Part shown: in pieces, positions 3,975 to 48,444 of the stretch
Numbering within the stretch: position 1 is the stretch's first letter
Layout of the letters: each line of letters starts with the position of its first letter
DNA from: Pyxidicoccus parkwaysis
GTDB taxonomy: Bacteria > Myxococcota > Myxococcia > Myxococcales > Myxococcaceae
Assembly: GCF_017301735.1 (NCBI RefSeq)
Contig: NZ_CP071090.1
Coordinates: 9,662,001-9,726,000, forward strand
Reading direction: 5' to 3'
Length of the DNA: 64,000 nt
Notes under the pieces: model-generated
What the model was told of the DNA's origin: nothing
Seen by the model: only the letters and a program-made list of their open reading frames with translations
Databases searched by the model: none
Made by a program: the position numbers and the translations under genes

Positions 3975-4042
3975 GTCTCCCGCCAACGGAGCCTCTCCTC
4001 CGCGCTCGCGCGGACCACGGAGGATGTGAGAGACCCACGGGC

Positions 4043-4645: not shown

Positions 4646-4826
4646 GCGACCTGTCATCGTACACGAAGCCCTGGCAATGAAGCCCCGCTGACACCCGCTG
4701 GGAAAGAATGCGGACCGGCGCACATGCACCTAGGGCAGCCCCCCTTTACGCCCCAGGCCTCCGCCACTAACACCAGCAGTGGCGGCCGGGTCGCACCGCG
4801 CCGCGAGGTGGGAGGGGGAGGGACTC

Positions 4827-5684: not shown

Positions 5685-5694
5685 GACGGCTCAG

Positions 5695-5724
5695 GCGCGC
5701 CCGTGAAACGGAAGGCGGGCGCGC
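5695..5724. terminator. Two-way hairpin between convergent genes
   Basis: A perfect 9-bp inverted repeat, GCGCGCCCG at 5695-5703 and CGGGCGCGC at 5716-5724, with a 12-base loop. It fills the 56-bp gap between the TonB-like gene and the DUF4153 gene, which point at each other. There is no T tract, so it is a plausible but unproven terminator. Confidence 0.5.
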
Positions 5725-5740
5725 AGACGTCATCGGTGGC

Positions 5741-7462
5741 TCACTCCGGGCGCACGGTGGTGTCCACCGACTGGAGCGCCCACCGGGCCCGCGCGTGCGA
5801 GAGGTTCCACTCGGGCCACGAGCTCGCGGCCGGCAGCCGCTCGGCGTACTGGCGCAGCAGGTCCGTCCGCCACGCGGGCCCCTGGGCCGTGTCTCGCACC
5901 AACTCGGGCACCGCGTCCGAGGAGAGGCCGGAGAGGTAATAGACATCCGGGCCGCTCGCGTCCGTGGCGCGCTCGATGTTGAGACGGACGATGAGCGCAT
6001 CCGGGTTGATGGCATTCACCGCGAGCACCGCGCCCAGCGCCGTGACGAAGGCGCCAATGGCAAAGCGCTCGGGTCTCCACCACAGCGTCACCGCGCGCCA
6101 CGTCAGCACCGCCCCCAGCGCGTACATGAACACGTGCGTGAAGAGGCGCAGGCGCGTGTAGCCGAACGCATCCTCGTAGAGCGTCATGCGCTTCACCGCC
6201 GAGGCGAGGATGACCACCGTCAGCGCCACCATCAGCGTCGCCCCCACGCGGAACACACCCTGCGCCAGTGGAGACTCACGGCGCGTCCAGCGCGCCAGCG
6301 CCATGACGAGGCCCAGCGTCATCATCGACACGAGGAGCAGCTCGAAGAAGCCCCGGCGCGCGTACTCCGCATAGGTGTAGCCCTCGGCGGGAGACGACGC
6401 GCCGCCGATGAACAGGTACGCCACCTGGAAGCCCGCGAAGACGAGGAAGAGCGCGTCCACCGCGAGGATGAGCGTGAGCGCCTCGGTGAGCCCCAGGCGT
6501 GGACGGGCCGGTGTGGCCTCGGCCTCGCCGCGCTCTGCGCCCCTGCGCCGGCGCAGCGCATGCCCCAGGGCCGCCGCCGCCACGAATGCGGAGAACCCCG
6601 CCCCCATGAGCCGGCCGAGGGTGCTCCCGAAGAGCGTCCACACGTCCACGCTCCACAGCCGGTTCATGGCCACGGCGAACGCGGCGTCCGCGGACTGGAG
6701 GAGGACACAGAAGACGAGCAGCACCGGCAGCGCGATGAGCACGCCTCTCACGAAGGGCAGCAGGCGAGGCGCATGCTCACGCGCGGACCGCAGGTCCACC
6801 GTGTCACGGATGAGCGCCGGGGGATACAGGAGGCCTCGGAACGTGGAGGCCAGCGCCACCAGCGGGTAACCCATCAAGCCCAGCCGCTGCACGCGACCCG
6901 CCGCCCAGAGGTGCGTGAGCAGCAGGAGCAGCGCGGCCGAGGTCAGCAGGTTGAGCGCGAGCAGCCACTCGCTCGCGCGCACCGCGACGAAGCCGGAGAT
7001 GATGAGCAGCGGCGCCGCGAGCCACGCATTCGGCCGGGCACGCTGCCAGCCCTCGCGCCCGCCGAGCACCACGAGCGTCCCCATCAAAGCCGCGACGACG
7101 ATGGGGAAGGACACGCCCCACAGGGGCCGGTCCAACAGCACCTCCGCGAGCACGCCCAGGCCCAGCGCCGCACCCAGCGTGGCGCGAGGCGCGCGAACCT
7201 GCGGCAGCAGCGGAGTGGTGCGCGGCGCCTGACGGTGGGCCGTGACGACAGGACCGCTCTCTGTCGTGCCCCTGGAGGGTGGGGGCCGAGGTGACGACGT
7301 CCTCGGAGATGTGGCCGCCCCGGGTGGCGTCGCCCCGAAGGATGAAGCCTCGGGCGCCGACACCCGGGAGGATGCCGGAGTCGATGCACCGGAGGGCGTG
7401 GCCTCGGGCGGCGACGTCAGGGACGGCGCGGGCGTGGAATCCGGCGGGACATACGTGCTCAT
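5741..7462 (-). CDS. DUF4153/DUF4173 polytopic membrane protein
   Basis: A 573-residue protein. I start it at the ATG at 7462, which has GAGGTG five bases upstream, rather than an in-frame start further out. About 90 residues of Ser/Pro/Thr-rich cytoplasmic sequence precede a large hydrophobic region with roughly 12 membrane segments. The stretch EGYTYAEYARRGFFELL is a hallmark of the DUF4153/DUF4173 group, whose function is not established. The C-terminal 80 residues are hydrophilic and contain a DVYYLSGLSSDAVPEL segment. It stands alone on its strand between two hairpin or promoter regions. Confidence 0.82.
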   Translation of the reverse strand: MSTYVPPDSTPAPSLTSPPEATPSGASTPASSRVSAPEASSFGATPPGAATSPRTSSPRPPPSRGTTESGPVVTAHRQAPRTTPLLPQVRAPRATLGAALGLGVLAEVLLDRPLWGVSFPIVVAALMGTLVVLGGREGWQRARPNAWLAAPLLIISGFVAVRASEWLLALNLLTSAALLLLLTHLWAAGRVQRLGLMGYPLVALASTFRGLLYPPALIRDTVDLRSAREHAPRLLPFVRGVLIALPVLLVFCVLLQSADAAFAVAMNRLWSVDVWTLFGSTLGRLMGAGFSAFVAAAALGHALRRRRGAERGEAEATPARPRLGLTEALTLILAVDALFLVFAGFQVAYLFIGGASSPAEGYTYAEYARRGFFELLLVSMMTLGLVMALARWTRRESPLAQGVFRVGATLMVALTVVILASAVKRMTLYEDAFGYTRLRLFTHVFMYALGAVLTWRAVTLWWRPERFAIGAFVTALGAVLAVNAINPDALIVRLNIERATDASGPDVYYLSGLSSDAVPELVRDTAQGPAWRTDLLRQYAERLPAASSWPEWNLSHARARWALQSVDTTVRPE

Positions 7463-7600
7463 GACTGCGCACCTCGAACGGGAGACGGCTCGGAACGTCC
7501 CCAAGATGCGCACGTCTCCACGCCGGAAAGTCCCGCTCCACGGCGAACGGTCGCGGCCCGGCGCCGGACGGTCCGTCCCCTCCCGTGGTCGGCAGACCCC

Positions 7601-8008
7601 TTACCCGGCGCGCATCCAGCCTTCGCGCTCCAGCAGGTCCGCCACGCGCGCGGCCACCTCGTCGCGGATGCGCTCCACCTGCTGCACCGAGCGGCCCTTC
7701 GGGTCCTCCAGGGGCCAGTCCTCGCGCTTGAGGCCCTTCACGTGGGGGCACGCCTCACCGCAGCCCATGGTGATGAGCCATTGCGCGTCCTCGGCCAGCG
7801 CGTCGGTGAGCAGACGGGGCTTCGCTTCGCCCAGGTCGATGCCGATTTCGCGCATCGTCTCCAACACTTCCGGGTGCACCCGCTCCGCGGGCTGCGTCCC
7901 CGCGGACGTGGCGCGCGCCCTGTCCGGGTCCGCCATCACGTTGAAGAACGCCGCCGCCATCTGCGAACGGCCGGCGTTGTGCACACAGGCGAAGATGACC
8001 TTGTTCAT
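7601..8008 (-). CDS. Arsenate reductase / low-MW protein tyrosine phosphatase family
   Basis: A 135-residue cytosolic protein starting at ATG 8008 (MNKVIFACVHNAGRSQMAA). The phosphate-binding CX5R loop is C8-VHNAG-R14-S, as in thioredoxin-coupled ArsC and low-MW phosphatases. A cysteine in the ITMGCGEACPHVKG stretch is typical of the ArsC branch, which reduces arsenate through a Cys cascade. No arsR, arsB or acr3 gene is adjacent, so an arsenic role rests only on the family. It is divergent from terC. Confidence 0.87.
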   Translation of the reverse strand: MNKVIFACVHNAGRSQMAAAFFNVMADPDRARATSAGTQPAERVHPEVLETMREIGIDLGEAKPRLLTDALAEDAQWLITMGCGEACPHVKGLKREDWPLEDPKGRSVQQVERIRDEVAARVADLLEREGWMRAG

Positions 8009-8313
8009 CTCAATCCCTTCGTCACTTCTTGAGCTTCGGCGCGCCCCTCCCCCGCGCGCGATGGTTGGTCGGGTCCACGCAGCCCACCTGAGCGGCGTGC
8101 CCCACGAGGCTGTCACAACTCACGCACGGATGCTCGGGAAGAGAGCTGGCAGCTTTGCCCCCGGTTGCCCTTGTCTGTCTTTACGCAGCCCGTCATGACT
8201 GCCGGACACCTGTCTGTCACGAGACCGGGGCGGCGCCGACCCCACCAGTCCCCACCTGGGGAGCGAGCGCTGGCGACTGGCTGCCCGGAGGGATGCATAG
8301 GTTGGACGGAGCC
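8009..8313. other. 305-bp divergent intergenic region (arsC-like / terC)
   Basis: This gap holds the promoters of the ArsC-like gene (leftward) and the TerC gene (rightward). GGACGGAG sits just before the TerC start. Short GC-rich palindromes occur (for example around CACCTGGGGAG at 8268-8278), but I could not fit them to a named riboswitch. No small gene is convincing here. Confidence 0.4.
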
Positions 8314-9309
8314 ATGCACCCCTTTCCCACATGGATATGGGTGGTCTTCTGGGCGGTGGTGCTGTCGCTCATCGCCGTGGACCTGACGGCCCACCGGGGC
8401 CGCCACGGCGAGTCCCGCCGTGCCGCCGTTCTCTGGAGCTGCGTGTGGGTCTCCGCGGGGCTGCTCTTCAACCTGCTCGTGTGGCGCGTCCTGGGCGCAC
8501 AGGCCGCGCAGGAGTACCTCGCCGCCTACTTCATCGAGAAGAGCCTCAGCCTCGACAACGTCTTCGTCTTCCTCGTCATCTTCCGCGGCCTGGGCGTCCC
8601 CTCTCGCGCCCAGCACAACGTGCTGTTCCTGGGCATCTTCGGCGCGCTCGTCTTCCGCGCCCTCTTCATCTTCCTGGGCGCGGCGGCGCTGGAGCGGTGG
8701 CAGTGGGTGGCCTACGTCTTCGGCACCATCCTCCTCGTCACCGCCTGGCGCGTGCTGCGCGAGGACCCGGCCCAGCAGCAGGAGAACCGGGTCGTCGGCT
8801 GGCTCGCGCACCGGCTGCCGGTGACGGAGAAGTTCCACGACAAGAAGTTCTTCGTGCGGCTCGAGAGCGGCCGGCGCGTCATCACGCCGCTCCTGCTGGC
8901 GCTGATGGGGCTGGAGCTGTCGGACATCCTCTTCGCCGTGGACTCGGTGCCCGCCGCCTTCTCGGTGACGGAGGACACCTTCGTCCTCTACAGCTCCAAC
9001 GCCTTCGCCATCCTCGGCCTGCGCGCGCTGTACCTGCTGCTGGCCGGCGCCGTGGGGCAGCTGCGCTACCTCCACTACGGCCTGGCCGGAGTGCTGGCCT
9101 TCGCGGGGCTGAAGATGGTGCTGGGGCAGTGGGTCCACGTGCCGCCGCTGATGTCCGTGGGCATCATCGCCGCGCTCATCGGCGCGGCGGTGTGGGCCAG
9201 CCTGCGCGCGCGGCGGAGGGAGGCCCGCACCTCGACGCCCGCGGTGCCCGCGCGCGGCGGGGAGCGGGAGCGCCGCGAGCCCAGGCACCCCACCGAAGCG
9301 GAGGCCTGA
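8314..9309 (+). CDS. TerC family integral membrane protein
   Basis: A 331-residue inner-membrane protein starting at ATG 8314 (MHPFPTWIWVVFWAVVLSL), four bases after GGACGGAG. About eight to nine hydrophobic segments are present. The family motifs FIEKSLSLDNVFVFLVIF and ELSDILFAVDSVPAAFSVT are visible, with the paired membrane aspartates thought to handle metal ions. TerC/Alx proteins are linked to manganese export or tellurite resistance and often act on metals at the membrane. The hydrophilic tail is Arg/Glu-rich. No other ter genes adjoin it. Confidence 0.9.
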   Translation: MHPFPTWIWVVFWAVVLSLIAVDLTAHRGRHGESRRAAVLWSCVWVSAGLLFNLLVWRVLGAQAAQEYLAAYFIEKSLSLDNVFVFLVIFRGLGVPSRAQHNVLFLGIFGALVFRALFIFLGAAALERWQWVAYVFGTILLVTAWRVLREDPAQQQENRVVGWLAHRLPVTEKFHDKKFFVRLESGRRVITPLLLALMGLELSDILFAVDSVPAAFSVTEDTFVLYSSNAFAILGLRALYLLLAGAVGQLRYLHYGLAGVLAFAGLKMVLGQWVHVPPLMSVGIIAALIGAAVWASLRARRREARTSTPAVPARGGERERREPRHPTEAEA

Positions 9310-9333
9310 GCCGGCGCGTCCCGTGACGGGAGG

Positions 9334-10179
9334 TCAGTCCTCGTCCTCCTGCGAGTCCTCGCCGGCCTGCACGGTGGGGGTGCCGTCGCCGAGGAGGAAG
9401 GCGTCGAAGGCGGAGCTGGCCATGGACTGCACCTGCGCCTCGTGCTGCTTCAGCAGTGCCACGTTGGCGGTCGCGACCTTCTTGCCCGCCTCGGACAGGG
9501 TGCCCGGGTTGGCCTCGTTCTTCTCCATGGACTCGATGGCGTTCTGGAGGTGGCCGCGCGCCTCCTCCAGCTGCGTGCGCTCCTCGTCGGAGAGCGAGTC
9601 ACCCTCCAGCTTCTTGTCCAACTCCGCGAGCTGCTTCTCCATCGCCTCGCGGCCCTGCTTCATCGCGCCCTGGGCCTGCTCCATGCTCTCGGCCATCAGC
9701 GAGGTGTAGACGGTGGTGGTGATGGTCTGGAACTCGAGGGGCGACATGTCGTGCTTCTTGAGGGCCTCGATGTAGGCCCCGCGCACGTCCGCCGTCATGG
9801 TCATCATCAGGTTGGTGGCGTCCAGGGCCGCGCCGATGTTGGGCTTGTTCTTCCCCTCCTTCCCGCCGTGCTCCCTCTCGAAGGCGTCCGCCTTCTCCTC
9901 CAGGGCCTTGAACGCGGGCAGCGCCGCCTGGCGCACGGCGAAGTAGGCCTCCAGCCGCTTCGCGTCGAGCGCGAGCATCTCGCCCTCCGGAGGCGCCCGG
10001 AAGGAGCTGGCCTGGTTGAGCTTCGCCAGCTCCTCCCCCTGGGCCGCCATCTTCTGGGTGGCCTCGATGGTGCCGCCAAACGTCTTCTTCGCCATCAGGC
10101 CGAGGCCGACCACGGCACCCACGCCCAGCAGGAGGAGGAGACCACAACCCACGCCAACGCCGATGAGGACCTTCTTCAT
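9334..10179 (-). CDS. Membrane-anchored coiled protein of unknown function
   Basis: A 281-residue protein starting at ATG 10179 (MKKVLIGVGVGCGLLLLLG). One N-terminal hydrophobic helix (residues about 4-29) probably acts as an uncleaved anchor. The rest is charged and strongly helical with heptad-like Glu/Lys/Gln runs, especially residues 120-230 (EEKADAFEREHGG, EKQLAELDKKLEGD, EERTQLEEARGH). The C-terminus is acidic (EDSQEDED). I do not recognise a named family. It is convergent with terC, 24 bp away, and divergent from the MFS gene. Confidence 0.8.
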   Translation of the reverse strand: MKKVLIGVGVGCGLLLLLGVGAVVGLGLMAKKTFGGTIEATQKMAAQGEELAKLNQASSFRAPPEGEMLALDAKRLEAYFAVRQAALPAFKALEEKADAFEREHGGKEGKNKPNIGAALDATNLMMTMTADVRGAYIEALKKHDMSPLEFQTITTTVYTSLMAESMEQAQGAMKQGREAMEKQLAELDKKLEGDSLSDEERTQLEEARGHLQNAIESMEKNEANPGTLSEAGKKVATANVALLKQHEAQVQSMASSAFDAFLLGDGTPTVQAGEDSQEDED

Positions 10180-10332
10180 GTTCCGCTCCACGGGAAATGC
10201 ACCACGTTGCCTCCGTGCTAGCCGGGCAGGCACTCGGGGGGCAAGAGGGGGCCCGCTCCCCAGCCTCCCCTCCCGTGGACAGGAGTCCAAAGCGCGGGCG
10301 CGCGCAGTGCTTTCACGCTAGTTAGAGGGCCC

Positions 10333-11547
10333 ATGTCGGAACAGGCGGGAACGCTCGGGGAGGAGCGGGGTGCGCAGCGCGCGCTCTGGTCCGACGCGGG
10401 CTGGCGGCGGTGGGTGGTGGCCGCGTCGGTGGTGCGACTGAGTGGGACGATGGCGGCCTTCGCGCTGCTGCTCGCGGGCGAGGCCGCCACCGGCTCGTAC
10501 GCATCCGGCGCGTGGATGGCGAGCGCCTACGCCTTCGGGTCCGCCGCGGCCGCGCCCTTCCGGGGACGCGCCATGGACCGGCGCCTGCTGCCCGACGGCA
10601 TGCGCGTGCCGCTGCTGCTCACCTCCGCGCTGTGTCTCGCGCTTGCGGGGTGCTGTGTCGCGCGGGCGCCGCTGCCGCTGCTGCTGGGCCTGTCGCTGGC
10701 GCTGGGCGTGGTGCCCGCGGGGGTGTTCGGTGCGTACCGCGCGCTGATGCCCTCGCTCCTTCCGCCACGCCTGCTGGAGCCGGCCTTCTCCATCGACGCG
10801 GTGCTGATTGAGGTGCAGTGGATGATGGGCCCGCCGCTGGTGGGCGCGCTCGCGCTGGCGCACCCCGCCCTGGCCCTCGTCACGCTGGCGGTGTGCAACG
10901 GGACCGGCGCGTTCCTCAACCGCCGGCTGCCCCAGCGCGCGCCTCCCCCGTCCTCCACCGCCCCCGGCGAGCGCGTGTCGCTGGCGCCCTTCCGCACGGG
11001 ACTGCCGGCCCTCGTCTACCTCGGCGTCGTGTCCAACGGGCTGAGCTGGGGACTGGTGGACGCAGCCATTCCTCCGCGCCTGGAGCAGGTGGGCGCGCGC
11101 GCGGAGGCGTGGGGGCTCATGGCCGCGCTCCTGTCCGCGACCAGCGCGGTGGGCGGGCTGCTCGCGGCGCAGTCGCGCACGCCCGGCACGGACGCGGCGG
11201 CCCTGCGGCGCGGGCTGCTCTTCCTCGCGGCGTGGGGGGCCATGCTGATACCCACCGGGCTCATGGCGAGCTCCTGGGGCATCGCCCTGTGGCTGGCGGC
11301 GGGCGGCTTCTTCCTCGCGCCGCAGTCCGCGCTCTACATCTCGCTGCTGCAGCGGCGGCTGCCCGTGGACCGGCACGCGGAGGGCTTCGCGCTCTTCAAC
11401 GCGGGCTGGGCGCTGGGCATCGGCGCGGGCAGCGCGGCGGCGGCGGTGCTGCTGGACACCGCGGGCTCGCAGGTGGCCATGCTGCTGTCCGGCGTCGCGC
11501 CCATCCTCGTGGCGCTGGGGGCGCGGCTGTCGCGACACGCCCGCTAG
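10333..11547 (+). CDS. MFS transporter
   Basis: A 404-residue major facilitator with about 12 membrane helices. The loop between helices 2 and 3 (RGRAMDRRLLPDG) has the basic Asp-Arg pattern of MFS proteins. The internal helix GLSLALGVVPAGVFGAYRALMPSLLP and the second-half helices are typical of drug or small-molecule exporters. The substrate is unknown. Its TAG stop shares a CTAG palindrome with the stop of the opposing histidine kinase, so the two coding regions overlap by four bases tail to tail. Confidence 0.88.
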   Translation: MSEQAGTLGEERGAQRALWSDAGWRRWVVAASVVRLSGTMAAFALLLAGEAATGSYASGAWMASAYAFGSAAAAPFRGRAMDRRLLPDGMRVPLLLTSALCLALAGCCVARAPLPLLLGLSLALGVVPAGVFGAYRALMPSLLPPRLLEPAFSIDAVLIEVQWMMGPPLVGALALAHPALALVTLAVCNGTGAFLNRRLPQRAPPPSSTAPGERVSLAPFRTGLPALVYLGVVSNGLSWGLVDAAIPPRLEQVGARAEAWGLMAALLSATSAVGGLLAAQSRTPGTDAAALRRGLLFLAAWGAMLIPTGLMASSWGIALWLAAGGFFLAPQSALYISLLQRRLPVDRHAEGFALFNAGWALGIGAGSAAAAVLLDTAGSQVAMLLSGVAPILVALGARLSRHAR

Positions 11548-13841
11548 GCGCTCGCGTGCGGGGCCTCCGCCCTCGTGCCCGGACGCGGAGCGGGGGCTGC
11601 ATTCCCGAGCAGGCGTGGCAGGCGCACCATGAAGGTGGTGCCCTCCCGGGGGTTGGAGCGGACGCGCAGCATGCCGCCGTGCGCGTCCACGATGTGCTTC
11701 ACGATGAACAGGCCCAACCCCAGGCCCCGGCTGTCGCGCGCGTCCTTGCGCTCGGCGCGCTTCATCGGCTCGAACAGGCGCGAGCGCAGCTCCGGCGGAA
11801 TGGCCGGCCCCAGGTTGTGCACCGCGAGCGCCACCGTGCCCCGCGTGCCGTGCGTGCGCACCCGCACCGGCCCCTGCTCCTCGCTATGGTGGATGGCGTT
11901 GTTCACCAGGTTGGTGATGACCTGCGCCAGCCGGTCCGCGTCCCATAGGCCCCGGCCGTCGCCGCTGCACTCGATGACCAGCCTCCGCTCGGGATTGGCG
12001 AGCTGCACCTCGTCCACCACCTGCCGGGTCAGCTCGTGCAAATCGAACAGCCGGGGCTGCATGGGGATGCCGCCGCCCAGCCGGGCCTGGGTGAAGTCCA
12101 GCACGTCGCGCAGCATGCGCGTGGCGCGCTCGGCGCTGGAGAGGATGCGGCCGATGACCTTGCGCTGCCGCTCATCCAATTCCTCGCGCCGCAGCAGCGT
12201 GGTGGTGGCCATGGTGATGGCGGAGATGGGGTTGCGCAAATCATGACCGACGATGCCGATGAGCAACTGCTCGAACTCCGCGCGGCGCTTCGCCTCCTGC
12301 TCCGCGGCCCGTCGCTCGGTGATGTCCTGCATGGCGCCCACCATGCGCACCGCGCGGCCCGCCGCGTTCCGAATCACCTGCCCCCGGTCCGAGATGACGG
12401 CCCACGTCCCGTCCCCGCGCAGGAAGCGGTACTCGTCCGTCCAGTGACTGCCGCCCTCGTCGATGAGGACCTGCATGTCGTGGCTCACCCGCTCGCGGTC
12501 CTCGGGATGGATGCGCCGCGTCCATTCGTTGATGTCCAGCTTCGGGTGGTGGGGCAGGAGGCGGAACTGCTGGGCGGCCAGCTCGCTCCACTCGATGTGA
12601 CCGGTGTCGAGCTGCCAGTCGTAGATGACGTCGCTGGTGGCCAGGGTGGCCAGCCGGTAGCGCATCTCCGACTGGGCGATGACCTCCTGCGCCCGGTGGC
12701 GCTCGGTGATGTCCAGCGACACGCCGGCCACGCTCACCACCCTGCCGTCGGGCCCCAGCACGGGGGAGATTCGCACCTCCAACCAGGTGCCGGAAATCTC
12801 CAGGTCCAGGGTGAAGCTCTCACCGGCCTGAGCGCGGCGAGCGGCCTCGAGGAGGTCCGGCCGGTCCGCGAACACCTCGGAGGCGGAGTGGCCCACGAGC
12901 TTGCTTCCGTCCAGACCGGCGGCCTGCAGTGCTTCGCCCTCGCAGAAGTTGATGATGCCCTTCGCGTCCGTGGACCAGATGACGATGGGAAGCTGGGTGA
13001 GGATGCGGCGCAGGTGCTCGCGGACCTCGTCGCGCTCGCGCTCGGCGCGCTTCACCTCGGTGATGTCGGTGGAGATGCCGCAGATGGCCGCCACGCCACC
13101 CGCCTCGTCCGGCAGGGGGAACTTGACCGACTGGTAGATGTGGGGCCCGTCCGCATGCACGATGAGCTCGTCGGTGACGATGGGCTGGCTGCTGGCGAGC
13201 ACCTGCAGGTCACTGAGCCGGCAGACCTCCGCCATGTCGGGCGGCAGCAGTTCCTGGTCCGTGTGGCCCAGCACCTCCTCCCGGCTCTTGCCGAGCGACT
13301 GCCCGAAGGTGCGGTTGATGAAGAGGTAGCGACCGCGCGAGTCCTTCGCGTAGATGTCGGCCGGCGCATGGTCGAGGATGCCGAGCAACGTCGCCTGGCT
13401 GGCCCGCAGGCTCCGCTCGCGCTCGCGGCCATGCTGCGCCACCGCTTCCGCGAGCCCCACGTCGAGCGTCTGGTTGAGCATGCGCAGCGCGGCCAGCTCC
13501 GGCCTCCAGCCCGCCTCGTCGAGCACCTCGAGGATGGCGTCGCGCAGCAGGCCGTACTCACGCACCAGCGTACCCACGTCCACGCCCGCCGCGTGGCGCT
13601 CGAGGCCAAGCCGGCCACCGAAGGCCCGCGCCCTCTCCAGGTCATGCGTCACATGCGGCCTGCGCAGCACGTCCACCAGCGCGTCCACCAGGCCAGACGC
13701 GCCGCGCATCCGCGGCTCGCGGCCAGGCGCCCCCTTTGCCAACACCTCGCCCACGAGCGCCTCCCAGCGCCGGAGGATGTCCTGCCTCCGGGCCTCCAGC
13801 ACGTCGGGAAGGAGGCAGGGCGGTGTCGCGCAGGGGTTCAT
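11544..13841 (-). CDS. Soluble multi-PAS sensor histidine kinase with RsbRD-like N domain
   Basis: A 765-residue cytoplasmic histidine kinase starting at ATG 13841 (MNPCATPPCLLPDV). Residues about 1-190 resemble the RsbRD N-terminal four-helix sensor domain. Three PAS domains follow, ending in DITEVKRAE, DITERHRAQ and DITERRAAE. The kinase core has the phosphoacceptor H533 in GHDLRNP, an N box NLVNNAIHH, an F-box-like RLFEP and the glycine box GLGLGLFIVKHIVDAHGG. No membrane helix is present, so it senses an internal signal such as redox state, ligand or light through PAS. No response regulator is adjacent, as is common for orphan kinases in myxobacteria. Confidence 0.93.
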   Translation of the reverse strand: MNPCATPPCLLPDVLEARRQDILRRWEALVGEVLAKGAPGREPRMRGASGLVDALVDVLRRPHVTHDLERARAFGGRLGLERHAAGVDVGTLVREYGLLRDAILEVLDEAGWRPELAALRMLNQTLDVGLAEAVAQHGRERERSLRASQATLLGILDHAPADIYAKDSRGRYLFINRTFGQSLGKSREEVLGHTDQELLPPDMAEVCRLSDLQVLASSQPIVTDELIVHADGPHIYQSVKFPLPDEAGGVAAICGISTDITEVKRAERERDEVREHLRRILTQLPIVIWSTDAKGIINFCEGEALQAAGLDGSKLVGHSASEVFADRPDLLEAARRAQAGESFTLDLEISGTWLEVRISPVLGPDGRVVSVAGVSLDITERHRAQEVIAQSEMRYRLATLATSDVIYDWQLDTGHIEWSELAAQQFRLLPHHPKLDINEWTRRIHPEDRERVSHDMQVLIDEGGSHWTDEYRFLRGDGTWAVISDRGQVIRNAAGRAVRMVGAMQDITERRAAEQEAKRRAEFEQLLIGIVGHDLRNPISAITMATTTLLRREELDERQRKVIGRILSSAERATRMLRDVLDFTQARLGGGIPMQPRLFDLHELTRQVVDEVQLANPERRLVIECSGDGRGLWDADRLAQVITNLVNNAIHHSEEQGPVRVRTHGTRGTVALAVHNLGPAIPPELRSRLFEPMKRAERKDARDSRGLGLGLFIVKHIVDAHGGMLRVRSNPREGTTFMVRLPRLLGNAAPAPRPGTRAEAPHASA

Positions 13842-13975
13842 GCAAGCGCCTCCCCTCCAGTGGAGGTGTGCAGCCCGGGACGATGAGGGACGGGCATGGC
13901 TGTCACAATTTGGATACCTCCCAGGAGAGATGGGGGCTCTTCGCCCCGCTGTCGGAGCCGGGTGATGGCCCGCAC

Positions 13976-14001
13976 AGGAGGCGACCACGGGTGCGCCTCC
14001 T
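13976..14001 (-). terminator. Hairpin after the nuclease gene
   Basis: A perfect 8-bp inverted repeat, AGGAGGCG at 13976-13983 and CGCCTCCT at 13994-14001, lies just past the nuclease stop in the direction of transcription. It separates the three-gene cassette from the histidine kinase. No U tract follows, so termination is inferred. Confidence 0.45.
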
Positions 14002-14017
14002 CTCAGAAAGAGCACGC

Positions 14018-14512
14018 TCACCGCTGACAAGGCACTGGCGAGCAGGCGCCCCAGATACCCCTCCGCGCACGCCGGGCCTCGGCCTCCAGCGCCTCGAACT
14101 CGGAGCGCCGCGCGGTGCCCGCGGGCGGCACGTGCAGCACACAGGCATGGCCCCGCTCCACCAGGAGCGTGTTCACCTCGCGCCCATCCACGGACACGTA
14201 TGCGAGCAGCCGGCCAAAACGGTCCGTGCATGCCTCGCCGTAGGCCAGCGTCACCTGACGTCCCTCGACGAGGCCACGGTTGAAGGCGTGGGCCTCCGGG
14301 CCGAAGCAGTCCTGTCTTCCTCCCGTGCTCTCCGGCGTGTCGACGAGCAGGTAGCGGATGCGCTCGCCACTCTCGAGGAGGAGCGTGTCCCCGTCGATGG
14401 CCTCCGCCACCCGGGCGGTGGTGGGTCCACAGGAGGAAGCCGTCTCTCCTCCACAGGACAGGAGCACGGTGGCCAGCACCGCGAGACACGCCCACCGGCT
14501 CACAGCGCGCAT
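14018..14512 (-). CDS. SNase-like (thermonuclease) lipoprotein
   Basis: A 164-residue staphylococcal-nuclease-fold protein with a lipoprotein signal: the lipobox LLSC puts the lipidated Cys at residue 20. Catalytic residues of the fold are present: R53, D58 and E61 in IRYLLVDTPES, and R101 in DRFGRLLAYV. It should therefore cut DNA or RNA in a calcium-dependent way at the envelope or cell surface. Extra cysteines (C28, C69, C95 and near the end) may form disulfides. Its start lies inside the end of the lamin-tail gene (13-bp overlap), so the two are probably translated together. It is the last gene of a three-gene cassette. Confidence 0.9.
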   Translation of the reverse strand: MRAVSRWACLAVLATVLLSCGGETASSCGPTTARVAEAIDGDTLLLESGERIRYLLVDTPESTGGRQDCFGPEAHAFNRGLVEGRQVTLAYGEACTDRFGRLLAYVSVDGREVNTLLVERGHACVLHVPPAGTARRSEFEALEAEARRARRGIWGACSPVPCQR

Positions 14513-16425
14513 GAACGGTTCTCCATGCCCGGGGTTCCACGGTCCCCGAGGCCATACCGGGCCGCTGTGGGCGCGGGACAGAAGCTCCCCGCGAGGTCAT
14601 TCCGCATGGGGTCGCTCCGTGTCGGGTCCACCTGCGAGGACACGCCCGGCACCGCCGCCGTCGTCCACGTCACCGCGTCCAGCAACCGTCCCTCCACGGA
14701 GAGCCGGAGCATGCGGTTGCCCTCACTGTTCGCGAGGTTGAAGGAGAACGTGCCGAACACCGAGGGCAGTCCGCCGTTGACGGACGCGTCCTCGCTGCGA
14801 GCGATGACCGCCCGGCCACCTGCCCTCAATGACAGACACAGTGTCGAGGTGAGCGCCGTGCTGCTACCGCTCTCGTTGGAGAGGGTGACGCCGTTGAGGT
14901 CCACGTCCCTCAGCGCGAGCACTTCGACCCACTCGCCCGTCGCGTCCGCCACGGCGCTCGGGTCCGCCATGAATTCGGTGAGGACCAGTGAGCCCGAGTC
15001 CGGGACTCTCGATGCTCGGGCCTTCCCGGTCGACCGGTCGATGCAACTGTTTGCCGGAACGCCCGCGTCCGTGGTGCCTCCGTCCATCGTCCCCGCGTCG
15101 GGCCTGCCTCCGTCGGCAGTCCCTGCATCGGCCCTGACTCCTCCGTCCGTGGAGCCCGCGTCGGGTCTACCTCCATCCGCCGAGCCCGCATCCGCACGGC
15201 CTCCGTCCGACGCACCCGCGTCCGGGACTCCGCCGTCCGTGCCACCGCCCACCGTACACACGTGGTTCGGCCTGCCCGGTGTCCCCAGGTTGCCGCGTGT
15301 CCCGTAGGCCTCCGTGGCCCGGCACCATGCGTCCTGTGAGTCATTGCGCTTCGCATCCGCCATGGACGCGGACACCTGCGTGGCCACGCCCTCCTCGGCG
15401 GGCCCATACACAGCAGCGTCGATGAGCACGTCTCCCGCCCGCACCGTCACCACGCCACCCGAGTTGCGCAGGTCCACGCCAAACGTGGCCACGGGCTGAG
15501 GCAGCCCACCGTTGAGCACCGCATCCGTGCGACGTGCCAGCACCACGCGCTCGCCCGCCGTGAGCGACAGGCACGTCTTTCCCTCCAGCTTCGTCCCCGA
15601 CGAGTCTGTGCCCACCGTCAGTCCATTCAGGTCCACGGGCACGGCGGCCAGAAGCTCCACCCACTCGCCCAGCGTGTCGTCGCCGCGCGGATTGGCCATC
15701 ACCTCGGTGATGACCAGGTCCCCCGCGCGCGGCCGTACCACGGGCCTCGCGGTGGAAGCTCCCATGGGCACACAGGACTCCACGACGCCCGCGTCCCCTG
15801 TCGATGTGTTCGGAGGCAGCGTCGGGTCGCACGGTGCATTCGCCTCACCCGGGCTTCCTCGCCCCGGACCCGCGTCCTCCGCACCGGCTCCGTCACACCA
15901 GCGCTCCGGGTCATCATTCCCCGCCGAGTCGGGCACGAGCCGGCCGTCGTAGATGCGGGCCACTCCGCTTTTCGAGGGCGCGGTGAGCTGTACTTCGTCA
16001 ACAACCCGCTCGCCGCACCGCACGCCCAGCTTCCCACCCGTGTTGCCCAGTGCGCCGAGCGCATCTCCGTATGCGTGGTCCACGTGCGCGGGCAACGAGC
16101 CCTCGCGCACGTCTCCGAGCACGAGGTAGTCCCCAGCGGCCACCGGCACGTTGCTGGTGAAGAGATACGCCCGCTCCTGCGAGCCATCCGAGCGGGCCGC
16201 GTAGAGCGTCAGTCCATGCAGGTCCACGGTGGCTCGCGTGGGATTGTGCAGCTCGACGTACTCCTGCCCGGTGTCCGTCCCCACGGGGTCATTCAGGTAC
16301 TCGGTGATGACGAGGTCTCCGGCCAATGTCCCGGCGCATGCCTCGTCCACGGCGTCGTCCAGGGACACTCCTCCACACGCCCATGCGCCGAGCAGCACCA
16401 TCCCTCCCAGCACCCATCCCCTCAT
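14500..16425 (-). CDS. Lipoprotein-like protein with three lamin-tail domains
   Basis: A 641-residue secreted protein starting at ATG 16425. The signal ends at LLGAWACGG, an imperfect lipobox (Trp at -2). Three lamin-tail (LTD) beta-domains start at LAGDLVITEYLNDP, RAGDLVITEVMANP and DSGSLVLTEFMADP. Each carries the family's E(Y/W)VEL core and DLxGxTL strand. Between the second and third lies a linker of repeated DAG/DGG units. Bacterial LTDs are often joined to extracellular nucleases or phosphatases and may bind nucleic acid or surfaces. The overlap with the SNase gene and the HhH-barrel gene upstream suggest a joint surface task. Confidence 0.87.
   Translation of the reverse strand: MRGWVLGGMVLLGAWACGGVSLDDAVDEACAGTLAGDLVITEYLNDPVGTDTGQEYVELHNPTRATVDLHGLTLYAARSDGSQERAYLFTSNVPVAAGDYLVLGDVREGSLPAHVDHAYGDALGALGNTGGKLGVRCGERVVDEVQLTAPSKSGVARIYDGRLVPDSAGNDDPERWCDGAGAEDAGPGRGSPGEANAPCDPTLPPNTSTGDAGVVESCVPMGASTARPVVRPRAGDLVITEVMANPRGDDTLGEWVELLAAVPVDLNGLTVGTDSSGTKLEGKTCLSLTAGERVVLARRTDAVLNGGLPQPVATFGVDLRNSGGVVTVRAGDVLIDAAVYGPAEEGVATQVSASMADAKRNDSQDAWCRATEAYGTRGNLGTPGRPNHVCTVGGGTDGGVPDAGASDGGRADAGSADGGRPDAGSTDGGVRADAGTADGGRPDAGTMDGGTTDAGVPANSCIDRSTGKARASRVPDSGSLVLTEFMADPSAVADATGEWVEVLALRDVDLNGVTLSNESGSSTALTSTLCLSLRAGGRAVIARSEDASVNGGLPSVFGTFSFNLANSEGNRMLRLSVEGRLLDAVTWTTAAVPGVSSQVDPTRSDPMRNDLAGSFCPAPTAARYGLGDRGTPGMENRSCAL
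15057..15240 (-). repeat. About 30-bp tandem repeat encoding DAG/DGG linker
   Basis: Six or so in-frame units of roughly 30 bp encode DAGxxDGGxx decapeptides (DAGASDGGRA, DAGSADGGRP and variants) within the lamin-tail protein. Such Asp-Ala-Gly linkers are frequent in secreted myxobacterial proteins and probably act as flexible spacers. The array is likely to vary in copy number between strains. Confidence 0.8.
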
Positions 16426-16478
16426 GTCGGCAACCCTCACGTTCAACGACCGCTGTTTCACTGCACATCCACGGCGCG

Positions 16479-18560
16479 TCAGAACCGCGTCTCCACTTCC
16501 AGGTGGAAGAGATGGCGCGGCGGGTCCGGCGGCACACGGGCCGTGCGCGCGTCCTTCAAGTCGAGCACCCACGTGTAACGGGTCCGCGCCGTCACCGCGC
16601 GCAGCGCCCAGCTCGCGTCCACGGCGGTGCGCAACTCCTGCCGGAGCCGGCTTCGCTCGGAGAGGTCCTCGTCCTTCCACACCACGCGGCCCCCAAGCTT
16701 CACGGAATCCACGGGAGTGAGCCGCACCTCGAGCACGGCCTGTCCGTCATAACGGGGCTCCAGGGCATCAGGCTCCACCACTCGCGCGTGGCCGTACTGC
16801 ACCGCCACCGTCACGCCCTCGGTGAGCTCGGACCGCACTCGCGCGATGACACGTTGACGCCCTCGCGCGCAGGAAGTCGCTCCGTCCTCGGCATCCACCC
16901 CTGTATCCGTGAAACAGGCTCCCGAGCCGCGCAGCTCCACCTGGAGCGATGGTTGGAATCGCGGCCATGCGAGCCAATCCGCGCGGGCGGAGGCACGCAC
17001 CTGCATCGTGCCCGCTGTTCCCGGCTCCGTGCCGTCGGCCGGCAGCGTCCAGGCATCCACCTGTCCCCGCACCCGCCAGACACGTTCCTCGCGCTGGAGG
17101 TAGCGCACGCGAGCGCCCAGCTCGTTGCGCACGCGCAGGCCCTCCAGCGCATCCGGCCCGGAGGGCGCGCCACTGTAGGGATTGGCGAAGTCGCGCCCGT
17201 AGTAGCGCAGGGCCACCTCCAGCTCACGCTGGGCACCCGAGAGCACGGTGCGCTGGAGGGCCGCGAAGCCTCCGCCACCATCCGGTGCGGCATCGAAGCT
17301 GCGCGTTCCCTCGAAGAAGAGGTCCACCGCGCCACGGCCCCAGGCCGCATCGAGCCCGAGCGCGCCGAAGCCTCCGCCCGCCGGGTAGCGGGCACTCGGC
17401 TGGAAGTCGAGCCGCGCTCCCTCCAAGGACCACACCGGCCGCGCCGCCCAGCCCGTCAGCCCCACATGCGCACGCGGAGACACGGACAGCATCGCATTGC
17501 CTCCGCCCGCCCACTCACGGAACACACCCGGCACGGTGCGCGCCGTGAGCTTCTCCACGTGAGAGCCTGACAATGGCACCAGCACCTCCGGAGCCCGGCA
17601 CGTGCCACGCGGGTCCGCACACGCGGAGCGGTCCAGCACCGCGCTCCGCTTCAACGAGCGGTGCTGATACGAGCCAAAGCCCGTGAGTGACAGCGTCGCG
17701 CCCATGCCCACCGGACCGCGCACCCTTCCCGCGACGCCACGAAAGCCTTCATCCCAGGCGAAGTCGGGAGTGACGTCGGACAGGCGCTCCTCGGGCTCGC
17801 ACCCGGTGCCGCTGACGAGACACTCGCGCTCCAAGGCTCCAGGTGGCCGCACGCCATCGTCGGGAAGGAAGCCCTCCGGTGACGGCAACGACGTGGTGTC
17901 CAGTGTGAGGCGCTGACCGAAGCCCAGTCGGTAAGTGCCCGCCAACACGGAGGCACGCTCGCCAGACCACTGCGCGTAGAACTTCGGCAGCAGCACCGCC
18001 GCACCGGGCGCATCCACGACGAGCGCGCGCCGCGCCGCATCCCGACGCAGCATTCCCAGACGGCGACGTGCGAGCGAGACGAGAACCCCCGTCCTCACCC
18101 CCGCGACTCCAGAAGCGCGGACCTGCAATGCAGCGGGAGGCAGCAGCGAGTCCGACGCGGCGAAAGCCATCAACAGCCGCGCATCGCCCGTGAGCCGCCC
18201 GGGCTCACGCTTCACCAGGAACGACGCGAGCCTCCGCTCCTCTTCCTCCGTGAGCCCCGACACCGCTGACTGGGACTCACCGTGCCGGAGCAGCAGCGCA
18301 TCCACCTCCGCGTACGTCAGCCCGGGCAGTCCATACAGCGTGGCACGCGACGCGAGCCTCGGGTCCACTCCGGACCGCCGCAGCGCCAGGAGCGCCGCGA
18401 GCGTCTCGCCCGAGATGGCCCCCTCTTCCGCCAGCGCGAGCAGGTCCAATTCGCCCGCCGCCTCCGGCTCCACCTCATACGGCGCCGCCCGCGCCGGTAC
18501 CGCGAAGACCAGCCACCACCCCAACACCCCCACCCACCCCACAGCGAGAACGCGACGCAC
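16479..18560 (-). CDS. Outer-membrane beta-barrel with N-terminal helix-hairpin-helix domain
   Basis: About 693 residues from GTG 18560 (MRRVLAVGWVGVLGWW), which has AGAGGG upstream; a GTG at 18590 is the alternative. A signal peptide ends near PARAAPYE. Residues about 35-115 form ComEA-like HhH repeats (DPRLASRATLYGLPGLTYAEVDALLLRHG region, then GLTEEEERRLASF). The rest is alternating amphipathic strands with aromatic girdles and ends VETRF, the C-terminal Phe signature of BAM-inserted barrels. HhH motifs usually bind DNA. The lamin-tail gene begins 53 bp downstream. I infer an outer-membrane protein of a surface DNA-handling set; no name is established. Confidence 0.8.
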   Translation of the reverse strand: MRRVLAVGWVGVLGWWLVFAVPARAAPYEVEPEAAGELDLLALAEEGAISGETLAALLALRRSGVDPRLASRATLYGLPGLTYAEVDALLLRHGESQSAVSGLTEEEERRLASFLVKREPGRLTGDARLLMAFAASDSLLPPAALQVRASGVAGVRTGVLVSLARRRLGMLRRDAARRALVVDAPGAAVLLPKFYAQWSGERASVLAGTYRLGFGQRLTLDTTSLPSPEGFLPDDGVRPPGALERECLVSGTGCEPEERLSDVTPDFAWDEGFRGVAGRVRGPVGMGATLSLTGFGSYQHRSLKRSAVLDRSACADPRGTCRAPEVLVPLSGSHVEKLTARTVPGVFREWAGGGNAMLSVSPRAHVGLTGWAARPVWSLEGARLDFQPSARYPAGGGFGALGLDAAWGRGAVDLFFEGTRSFDAAPDGGGGFAALQRTVLSGAQRELEVALRYYGRDFANPYSGAPSGPDALEGLRVRNELGARVRYLQREERVWRVRGQVDAWTLPADGTEPGTAGTMQVRASARADWLAWPRFQPSLQVELRGSGACFTDTGVDAEDGATSCARGRQRVIARVRSELTEGVTVAVQYGHARVVEPDALEPRYDGQAVLEVRLTPVDSVKLGGRVVWKDEDLSERSRLRQELRTAVDASWALRAVTARTRYTWVLDLKDARTARVPPDPPRHLFHLEVETRF

Positions 18561-44621: not shown

Positions 44622-46301
44622 TCAGCTCTTGCTGATGGGCCGGTACCGGATGCGGTGCGGCTCCAGGGCCTCGGGGCCGAGGCGCTTCTTCTTGTCCGCC
44701 TCGTAGTCCTGGAAGTTGCCCTCGAAGAAGAACACCTTGCTGTCCCCCTCGAACGCCAGGATGTGCGTGGCGATGCGGTCCAGGAACCAGCGGTCGTGGC
44801 TGATGACCACCGCGCAGCCCGCGAAGCTCAACAGCGCGTCCTCCAGGCTCCGCAGCGTCTCCACGTCCAAATCGTTCGTGGGCTCGTCGAGCAGGAGGAG
44901 ATTTCCGCCGCTCTTCAGCATCTTCGCCAGGTGCACGCGGTTGCGCTCGCCGCCGGACAAATCCTTCACGCGCTTCTGCTGGTCCTGCCCCTTGAAGGCG
45001 AAGCCCGCCAGGTACGCGCGGCTCGGAATCTGTCCGCCCTTGCCCAGGTCCAGGTGGTCCAGCCCACCGCTCACCTCCTGGAACACCGAGTTCTCACCAT
45101 TCAGCGCGTCGCGGCTCTGGTCCACGTAGGCCAGCTTCACCGTCTCGCCCATCTTCAGCTCGCCGGCGTCCGGCTTCTCCACGCCCGTCATCATCCGGAA
45201 CAGCGTCGTCTTGCCCGCACCGTTGGGACCAATCACCCCCACGATGCCACCGGGCGGCAGCTTGAAGTTCAGGTCCTCGACGAGCAGCCGGTCGCCGTAC
45301 GCCTTGCGCAGCCCCTTCGCCTCCACCACCAGGCCGCCCAGCCGGGGCGCGGGAGGAATGACGATTTCGCCCGTCGCGTCCCGCTTGTCCTGCGTCTGGT
45401 TGAGCAGCTCCTCGTACGCGGCGATACGCGCCTTGCTCTTCGCCTGACGCGCCTTGGGCGACTGGCGCACCCACTCCAGCTCGCGCTTGAGCGTCTTCTG
45501 TCGGGAGCTCTCCGCCTTCTCCTCCAGCGCCAGCCGGTTCTGCTTCTGCTCCAGCCAGCTCGAGTAGTTGCCCTTCCAGGGCACGCCCTCGCCGCGGTCC
45601 AGTTCCAGAATCCACTCGGCCGCGTTGTCCAGGAAGTACCGGTCGTGGGTGATGCAGACGATGGTGCCCTTGTACTCCTTCAGCGCCTGCTCCAGCCACG
45701 CGACGCTCTCCGCGTCCAGGTGGTTGGTGGGCTCGTCCAGCAGCAGCAGGTCCGGCTTCTCCAGGAGGATGCGGCACAGCGCCACGCGGCGCTTCTCACC
45801 ACCGGACAGCTTCGTCACGTCCGCGTCGCCCGGAGGCAGGCGCAGCGCGTCCATGGCCATCTCGATGGTGCGGTCCAGCTCCCAGCCGTTCACCGAGTCG
45901 ATGTAGTCCTGGAGCTTGCCCTGCTCCGCGAGGAGCTTCTCCATGGCCGCGTCGTCCATGGGCTCGGCGAACTTCGCGCTGACCTCGTTGAAGCGGTCCA
46001 GCGCGGTGCGAATCTCCTTCAGGCCCAGCTCCACGTTCCCCTTCACGTCGAGCGAGGACTCGAGCTGCGGCTCCTGCGGCAGGTAGCCGACCTTGGCGCC
46101 CGGGTCCGGCTTGGCCACGCCGAAGAACTCCGTGTCCACGCCCGCCATGATGCGCAGCAGCGTCGACTTACCGGAGCCGTTCGGGCCGATGACACCAATC
46201 TTCGCGCCCGGGAAGAACGACAGGTAGATGCCCTTGAGGATCTCCTTGCCATTCTTGACCTTGCGCAGGTCCTGCATCGTGAAGATGAAATTCTGGGCCA
46301 T
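44622..46301 (-). CDS. ettA: Energy-dependent translational throttle ABC-F protein EttA
   Basis: A 559-residue soluble ABC-F protein with two ATPase domains and no membrane helices. The first domain has Walker [14 protein letters not shown] and [13 protein letters not shown] with DEPTNHLD. The second has [13 protein letters not shown] and [13 protein letters not shown] with DEPTNDLD. The arm between PLSG-like segments and the linker [20 protein letters not shown] are typical of EttA, which binds the ribosomal E site and gates elongation in response to ATP/ADP. Length matches EttA (about 555). Confidence 0.95.
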
Positions 46302-46582
46302 CGCGGCTTTCCTGCCTCCGGCGGGGTGAGGGGCTCAGCGGATACCAGGGTGGAACAGCGCACTCAAGCCGCGAGCGTCCCAATCCCCGCGCCCCCACAG
46401 CCCCCGACAGCCCGGCTGGAGCACCAGCCGTCAGAGGGTGGACAGCGCAGGGACCGGGGGTCGGGGCGCTCGCGGGCGTGGCGGGCACGAAAATCCGGGC
46501 GGAAAATACCTGTCGAAAACTCCGGACCCCGTTCGACCCATCGTCGGGGAGGCTCCACTCCCCCCGAATCCCGAGGAACACC

Positions 46583-46945
46583 ATGCGCTACGTGCTGGCC
46601 ATCTACGAGAACGAGAAGAAGATGTCCGTCCCGCCGAACAGCGATGCCGAGCGGGCGATGAACTCCGAGTACTTCGCCTTCACGGAGAGCATCAAGAAGA
46701 GCGGCAACCTCGTGGGGGGCGAGGCGCTGCAGCCCACGTCCACCGCCACCACGGTGCGCATCCGCGACGGCAAGCGCCTGACGACGGACGGCCCGTTCGC
46801 CGAGACGAAGGAGCAGCTCGGCGGCTTCTACCTCATCGAGGCGGAGAACCTGGACCAGGCCATCGCCATCGCCTCGCGCATCCCGGGCGCGAAGACGGGC
46901 TGCGTCGAGGTGCGGCCCGTGGTGAACTTCACCAACATGGGCTGA
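46583..46945 (+). CDS. YCII/DGPF-domain protein
   Basis: A 120-residue protein from ATG 46583 (MRYVLAIYENEKKMSVPPNS), with AGGA upstream. The YCII fold hallmark TTDGPFAETKEQLGGFYLIE is present, and the family ends with a VEVRPV strand. DGPF proteins are routinely encoded beside ECF42-type sigma factors, as here (sigma gene 243 bp downstream, same strand), and are thought to be their regulatory or functional partners. The exact biochemical role is not settled. Confidence 0.9.
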   Translation: MRYVLAIYENEKKMSVPPNSDAERAMNSEYFAFTESIKKSGNLVGGEALQPTSTATTVRIRDGKRLTTDGPFAETKEQLGGFYLIEAENLDQAIAIASRIPGAKTGCVEVRPVVNFTNMG

Positions 46946-47045
46946 TGGCTCCGCGCCGCCGCTCTCTCTGACGAGCGGCGGCCGGTGTCCTCCACATGGG
47001 CGCACCGGACGCCATGCATTGATGGCAGCTCCCGGCCTCCTCCGT

Positions 47046-47258
47046 CTGTGCACACCGGACGCTACGCCGAAGCAGACCTACCGTGAGCACTATGGCCGCA
47101 TCGTGGCCACCATCGCATGAGCACACCGGACTCCACGCTGGAGCGGACGTACCGCGAGCCCCATGGCGGCATCGTGACCACCATCGCATGAGCACACCGG
47201 ACGCCACGCTCGAGCGGACATACCGCGAGCACTACGGCCGCATCGTGGCCACCGTCAT
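47046..47258 (+). repeat. Three tandem 71-bp copies of the sigma-gene start
   Basis: Copies at 47046-47116, 47117-47187 and 47188-47258 align end to end. The last is the true 5' end of the sigma gene; the earlier two are imperfect copies of it. Copy 2 opens with ATG and reads MSTPDSTLERTYREPHGGIV before a TGA that overlaps the real ATG (ATGA). Copy 1 opens with CTG in place of ATG and ends in the same ATGA overlap with copy 2. A shorter, decayed fourth match (ATGGGCGCACCGGACGCC) begins at 46995. Confidence 0.88.
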
Positions 47259-48444
47259 CCGTGTGCTCGGCGGAGACTTCGCCGCCGCGGAGGAGGTCGT
47301 GCAGGAAGCCTTCGCGGACGCACTCACGCAGTGGCCGCGACAGGGCATTCCCCACGAGCCTCAAGCGTGGGTCATCCGGGCCGCGCGCAACAAGGCGGTG
47401 GACCGGGTGCGGCGCGGCGTCCGGCTGGGCACGCGGGTCGATGAGCTCGAAGCGGTGGCGCGCATCGAGCAGGAGCTCGCTCCGCCTCCGGATGGCACGG
47501 AGTGGCAGGCGATTCCGGACGACACGCTGCGCCTGCTCTTCACCTGCTGCCACCCCTCGCTCGCGCCCGAGGCGCAGGTGGCGCTCGCGCTGCGCACGCT
47601 GTGCGGCCTCACCACGGAGGAGATTGCGCACGCCTTCCTCGTGCCACCGGCGACGATGGCGCAGCGGCTGGTGCGCGCGCAGCGCAAGATTCGCGACGCC
47701 GGCATTCCATACTCCGTGCCGGAGGCGGACGCGCTGGGTGAGCGCACGCACGGCGTGCTGCACACCGTGTACCTCGTCTTCTCCGAGGGGTATGCGGCCA
47801 CGGACGGGCCGGAGCTGCTGCGCGTGGAGCTGTGCGCGGAGGCGCTGCGGCTGGGACGGCTCGCGCGCTCGCTGCTGCCGCGCGACGCGGAGGTGGCGTC
47901 CCTGCTCGCGCTGATGTTGCTGCACCACTCGCGACGCCGTGCCCGCGTGGCGGCGGATGGCGGACTCGTGCTGTTGGACAGACAGGACCGTTCGCTCTGG
48001 GATTGCGAGGAGATTCGAGAGGGATTGGCACAGCTCGACGCGGCGCTCGCGCTGGGGGCTCGCGGGCCGTACACGCTCCAGGCCGCCATCGCCGCGCTGC
48101 ACGCGCAGGCCCAGCGTCCGGAGGACACGGACTGGGCGCAGATTGCCGCGCTCTACGCGAAGCTGTGCGAGCTGTCTCCCGGCCCCGTGGTGGAGCTGAA
48201 CCGCGCGGCCGCGGTGGCCATGGCCCACGGGCCGGAGCACGGGCTCGCGCTGGTGGATGACCTGGACACGTCCGGGCGCCTCACCGACTACCACCTGCTT
48301 CCCGCTGCGCGCGCCGAGTTGCTGCGACGGCTGGGACGCGATGACGAGGCCGTGGCCAGCTACCGGCGCGCCCTCTCACTGGTGCGCACCGAGCCCGAGC
48401 GGCGCTTCCTGGAGGAGCGGCTGCGCGAATTGCTCGGCACCTGA
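47188..48444 (+). CDS. ECF42-type RNA polymerase sigma factor with C-terminal TPR-like extension
   Basis: A 418-residue sigma factor from ATG 47188 (MSTPDATLERTYREHYGRIV). Sigma region 2 spans about residues 10-80 (EEVVQEAFADAL, PQAWVIRAARNKAVDRVRRG). Region 4 follows at about 110-175 (CCHPSLAPEAQVALALRTLCGL, TTEEIAHAFLVPPATMAQRLVRAQ). The long C-terminal extension (DUF6596 plus TPR-like helices) is typical of group ECF42, which lacks a classical anti-sigma factor and pairs with DGPF proteins. The start lies in the third copy of a 71-bp repeat and overlaps a short upstream frame by ATGA, so translation is probably coupled. Confidence 0.92.
   Translation: MSTPDATLERTYREHYGRIVATVIRVLGGDFAAAEEVVQEAFADALTQWPRQGIPHEPQAWVIRAARNKAVDRVRRGVRLGTRVDELEAVARIEQELAPPPDGTEWQAIPDDTLRLLFTCCHPSLAPEAQVALALRTLCGLTTEEIAHAFLVPPATMAQRLVRAQRKIRDAGIPYSVPEADALGERTHGVLHTVYLVFSEGYAATDGPELLRVELCAEALRLGRLARSLLPRDAEVASLLALMLLHHSRRRARVAADGGLVLLDRQDRSLWDCEEIREGLAQLDAALALGARGPYTLQAAIAALHAQAQRPEDTDWAQIAALYAKLCELSPGPVVELNRAAAVAMAHGPEHGLALVDDLDTSGRLTDYHLLPAARAELLRRLGRDDEAVASYRRALSLVRTEPERRFLEERLRELLGT

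Follow-up and report, generated by a model that had tools for sequence, protein, structure and literature searches.

Organisation of the locus

The window analysed here, a stretch of 64,000 nucleotides of the Pyxidicoccus parkwaysis genome (contig NZ_CP071090.1, positions 9,662,001 to 9,726,000), comes from a genome assembled as a single contig of 13.2 Mb and contains a YCII-related gene followed on the same strand by a gene for an ECF42-like sigma factor (Table 1). The sigma protein has Sigma70_r2, Sigma70_r4_2 and DUF6596 matches above the Pfam cut-off. Regions 2 and 4, the long C-terminal extension with TPR (the TPR_7 match being weak, at 23.1–23.5 bits under a cut-off of 27.9) and the YCII neighbour are all found here, in agreement with ECF42. 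The arrangement of sigma and YCII genes is the one described for ECF42 and the domain order is shared as well, only the duplicated start discussed below being unusual (PMC8999054).

A promoter-like pair lies upstream of the YCII gene, followed before the YCII start by a GGGGAG...CTCCCC stem at 46548–46566, similar versions of which can be seen by eye in many relatives. The exact promoter pattern was found upstream of YCII in 11 of 30 independent loci, and a looser form, [T/G]GTCGA...TCGA, was recognised by eye in the upstream stretches of the other relatives viewed (L030 and L031 not included), in some with a changed base. ECF42 sigma factors use promoter motifs of this [T/G]GTCGA...TCGA type, and the pair upstream of YCII is probably the operon promoter, judging from the pattern.

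Table 1. Coordinates of the features in the window
Feature	Position	Strand	Description	Basis
Promoter-like pair TGTCGA-N17-CGA	46511..46536	+	upstream of YCII gene; probable operon promoter	pattern search
YCII-related gene	46583..46945	+	120 aa; GAGG Shine-Dalgarno-like motif; PF03795, E 2.7e-24	
Possible fifth copy	46945..46995	+	51 nt; most decayed	alignment against shuffles
8-codon frame in possible fifth copy	46945–46971	+	ATG overlaps YCII stop (TGATG)	
Fourth copy	46996..47045	+	50 nt; unit with 21-nt internal deletion; contains 8-codon frame 46996–47022	
32-codon frame through copy 1	47022..47120	+	ends in ATGA at 47117	translation
Copy 1 of 71-nt unit	47046..47116	+	start codon lost (CTG)	TRF, alignment
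Alternative in-frame GTG start	47083..47085	+	453 aa; would add 35 residues, encoded by copies 1 and 2 in different frames; not conserved in relatives	
Copy 2 of 71-nt unit	47117..47187	+	24-codon frame 47117–47191 ends in ATGA at 47188	
Copy 3	starts 47188	+	first 71 nt of sigma gene	
ECF42-like sigma factor gene	47188..48444	+	418 aa; start agrees with relatives' starts	Pfam

The spacer between the two genes contains copies of the start of the sigma gene. TRF run on the window reports a repeat of period 71 with 2.9 copies and a score of 310, the highest of nine rows, which confirms the three head-to-tail copies described in the initial annotation; their pairwise identities are 58, 58 and 60 of 71. 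The decayed fourth match proposed there is also real, but it starts at 46996 rather than 46995 and is longer than had been thought, since 46996–47045 can be aligned over the entire unit if one deletion is allowed (0–1 of 1000 shuffles score as high); as a local match it was equalled by none of 2000 shuffles against the array and by one of 2000 against the sigma start. Alignment of the remaining segment, 46945–46995, was equalled by 12 of 1000 shuffles both against the sigma start and against the fourth copy, with weaker values against copies 2 and 1 (104 and 170 of 1000), and a fifth copy in this place is suggestive only. If it is real, the spacer consists of 50 + 50 + 71 + 71 nt of old sigma starts, the first base of the fifth copy being shared with the YCII stop, and so the whole 242 nt between YCII and sigma may have come from copies of the sigma start. 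A foreign insert was considered as the source of the spacer and rejected, as no second place in the own genome matches it and it resembles the sigma start. Directly after the YCII stop there is also a perfect stem, CCGCCGCTC/GAGCGGCGG, at 46955–46982.

The copied stretch encodes the 23 N-terminal residues of the sigma protein. The Pfam match to region 2 begins at residue 14, so the mini-peptides, previously related to region 2, would overlap at most about its first ten residues.

That the array was seen in one genome only would fit an assembly artefact. The copies, however, differ from one another at 11–13 of 71 bases, unlike an assembler's duplicate, and lie within a single contig, which makes this explanation extremely improbable.

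Comparison with related loci

The best named matches to the sigma gene are from Pyxidicoccus and Myxococcus, and a match at 1e-90 or better exists in 77 of 96 family genomes, the own genome included. The relatives examined are 29 loci (L003–L031) among the matches listed, weaker matches without a locus being left out; L032–L038 duplicate seven of the 29 loci and were not counted again. One of these records, BNCN01000008.1 (L038), is titled Comamonas sp. KCTC 72670 and carries a sigma gene 79% identical to that of the window; it is probably mislabelled.

The window has its PF03795 gene directly upstream of sigma, and all 29 relatives have one upstream as well; in them the aligned sigma start follows the YCII stop at −1 to 55 nt (10–18 nt in the four nearest relatives), compared to 242 nt here. 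None of the 29 has an extra copy of the sigma start. When 96 family genomes were searched at the DNA level with the spacer and the sigma start, 24 matched, the own genome included, the others each with one stretch of at most 72 nt at the orthologue; G068 has a second short match elsewhere. Given these single short stretches and the short spacers of the relatives, the array is known only in the window genome. In the collections searched, the species was represented by this strain only. The sigma start differs from those of the sisters at 9–14 of 71 positions, about as much as the copies differ among themselves, and therefore an older array may have existed and since been lost in the sisters. 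A literature search found no description of such a duplicated gene start, which does not mean that none has been published.

The comparison also bears on how the sigma gene is translated. Among 27 loci, the window included, a Shine-Dalgarno-like motif precedes the start of YCII in 24 and that of sigma in 6 (this count left out L029–L031, where the sigma start is unclear, and the duplicates L032–L038). In the window and its four nearest sisters there is no such motif before the sigma start. Since the gene has no motif of its own and begins 10–18 nt past the YCII stop in the nearest sisters, it was probably translated by coupling to YCII, which over such a distance is the natural reading for the sisters. 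Relatives with spacers of 51–55 nt (for example L007–L010) show, by eye, a hairpin-like repeat after the YCII stop.

An upstream start of the sigma protein at GTG 47083, with the duplication having added an N-terminal extension of 35 residues, has in its favour that the sigma frame meets no stop as far back as −168 and contains a GTG at −105 and an ATG at −96. None of the 29 relatives has a homologous extension, their starts align with 47188, and no Shine-Dalgarno-like motif precedes 47083, so that we regard this start as quite unlikely.

The longer spacer could also supply a separate promoter or RNA element that would uncouple sigma from YCII. There is room enough in 242 nt, the perfect stem after the YCII stop would be one candidate, and an example is known in the MIRU spacer of senX3-regX3, which reportedly drives regX3 (PMC4213456). 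On the other hand, no sigma-70-like promoter was found in 46400–47300 and pattern search gave no ECF-type motif in the spacer; the predicted fold of 46930–47220 is not more stable than that of shuffles (z −0.87, with 30 of 200 folding as well), and an Rfam search of 46300–47500 gave one match, on the opposite strand and below the gathering score. Such an element is therefore improbable.

Phase of the repeat and chained overlaps

The ATGA overlap at which a short frame ends in the start of the next was originally described for each upstream copy. It is indeed present at 47117 and 47188, but copy 1 lacks an ATG (CTG TGC stands at its start position), and the frame through it opens instead with the ATG at 47022, in a TGATG overlap with the stop of the 8-codon frame 46996–47022. 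The overlaps had appeared surprising because 71 is not a multiple of three. They lose this character once the phase is considered: given an ATG-A start and a period of 71, which is 2 mod 3, the upstream frame necessarily reads TGA at the next start, and chained ATGA overlaps need no selection. We duplicated in silico the starts of L003, L005 and L006 with periods of 40–120 and 0–10 leading bases, taking as coupled any stop within −8 to +6 nt of the start. With periods of 2 mod 3, 888 of 891 constructs were coupled, against 6 of 1782 in the other two phases. The two ATGA overlaps thus represent one coincidence (with a chance of about 1/3), copied once.

As a background sample, 1.2 Mb of the own genome (60 stretches, about 9%) was taken. 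It holds 164 arrays, of which 13 score at least 310, so an array of this strength is ordinary here. Among the 31 arrays with periods of 40–200, 27 have a period divisible by three, another 3 have one of 1 mod 3 and a single array (L136) has one of 2 mod 3, this last lying at a gene end according to a crude ORF list; another 2 mod 3 array on a gene start was not seen in the 1.2-Mb sample. Two places in the genome may be mentioned in their own right. L151 has three 76-bp tandem copies at 14830–15059, 92% matching and situated between genes or at a gene edge, and L169 has four strong arrays (periods 42, 180, 123 and 126) in one 20-kb stretch at 3027–17273, probably in one or more long repetitive genes.

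State of the copies and the path of ribosomes

Private changes that could be polarised (other sites being left out) amount to three nonsynonymous and one synonymous in copy 1, three and none in copy 2, and none and two in the sigma copy. In copies 1 and 2 together 6 of 7 changes are thus nonsynonymous, with a neutral expectation of about 0.76, and the sigma copy looks constrained while copies 1 and 2 do not, the counts (7 and 2) being small. The polarised changes give no sign of protein-level selection on the mini-peptides, an idea which we rejected, and the pairwise ratios give no uniform picture, with 0.26 between copy 1 and sigma, 0.63 between copy 2 and sigma and 0.97 between copies 1 and 2; the low first value is no proof of such selection because it includes the constraint on sigma itself. 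The units are 15–18% diverged and so are not being homogenised, unlike a repeat that varies in copy number.

As originally proposed, there is an open reading path that leads from copy 1 by way of copy 2 to sigma, and with ATG starts it can be followed from the YCII stop through 46945–46971, a 24-nt gap, 46996–47022, 47022–47120 and 47117–47191 to the sigma gene. Along it there are −1 overlaps (TGATG) at 46945 and 47022 and −4 overlaps at 47117 and 47188, the gap being at 46971–46996; if GTG is allowed as a start, a step of 16–20 nt is needed instead of the gap. Two kinds of simulation indicate how much can be read into this path. Dinucleotide shuffles of the spacer, with gaps of up to 24 nt, contain a chain in 18% of cases with ATG only and in 32% with ATG or GTG, and with both 71-nt copies left intact and shuffling confined to the first 100 nt, the values are 13% and 40%; the real sequence has no chain when gaps are limited to 15 nt. 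In neutral simulations with 10, 15 and 20 changes the path copy 1–copy 2–sigma persisted in 59%, 45% and 34% of runs, respectively, so its survival carries little weight. As to the gap, distances of about 20 nt nearly abolished coupling in E. coli and H. volcanii (PMC10666635); a review also cites studies with weaker distance dependence (PMC12548453). Hand-over of ribosomes may therefore fail today at the 24-nt gap, or at the 16–20 nt step.

These results bear on the suggestion of the initial annotation that the copies form a maintained translational relay, in which copy number would set the level of sigma, each extra frame passing on a fraction of the ribosomes. Two ATGA and two TGATG overlaps do lie between the YCII stop and sigma, none of the internal starts of the spacer has a Shine-Dalgarno-like motif, and gene coupling through such overlaps has been described in other prokaryotes (PMC6728339). 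Nevertheless, the overlaps are forced by the phase, the copies have diverged with changes of neutral type, the start of copy 1 is lost, the path is broken near YCII, a chain is found in 18–32% of shuffled spacers and the copies are absent from all 29 relatives. Tuning of sigma by a maintained array is thus unlikely; the relay would be a by-product, which may still carry ribosomes.

Comparison with known systems and interpretation

The nearest precedent is the MIRUs of the mycobacterial senX3-regX3 spacer, where, as here, short units follow one another between two regulatory genes of the same orientation. In PMC4213456 the units are given as 77 bp and 53 bp, lengths which by our arithmetic are also 2 mod 3, and PMC12548453 describes a short frame in the MIRU that couples by −4 to the next start, a trait shared by the ATGA overlaps at 47117 and 47188. 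In contrast to MIRUs, which are dispersed and apparently mobile, the unit here is the gene's own 5′ end, found in one place in the genome as diverged copies, and for these reasons the array is not a MIRU. Termination-reinitiation at ATGA and TGATG (Huber et al., 2019, 2023; PMC6728339, PMC10666635) involves the same −4 and −1 overlaps, but the known cases couple real genes, whereas the frames upstream of sigma are fragments of a gene, not conserved, with one 24-nt gap between them.

The explanation that we favour, and hold to be reasonably probable, is a serial tandem duplication of a sigma start that lacks a Shine-Dalgarno motif and is probably coupled, tolerated since its phase left a path for ribosomes, with the copies now decaying. 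Repeated tandem duplication of the first ~22 codons of the ECF42-like sigma gene, the second gene of the YCII-sigma operon, would have created the spacer. Owing to the ATG-A start and the 71-nt unit, each upstream copy would have become a short frame whose stop lies within the ATGA of the start that follows. Ribosomes could then still have been handed on from copy to copy and the duplication would have been cheap, perhaps tolerated for this reason although the distance grew to 242 nt. The copies themselves would be unmaintained, with start codon, length and sequence being lost at the neutral rate. The array is best described as a real serial duplication of a gene start, specific to this lineage and in decay.

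The striking ATGA chain over a repeat whose period is not divisible by three is accounted for by simple arithmetic, which is a warning against reading function into it. The same arithmetic provides a testable rule, namely that tandem copies of a start beginning NTGA remain coupled in just one of three phases. More tentatively, and in our opinion rather doubtfully at present, in-operon duplications of gene starts may survive mainly when a period of 2 mod 3 is combined with an NTG-A start, so that phase would act as a filter on 5′ duplications, which the MIRUs of 77 and 53 bp would obey too. If this is true, only that combination would allow translation of the downstream gene to continue, through short frames acting as a relay.
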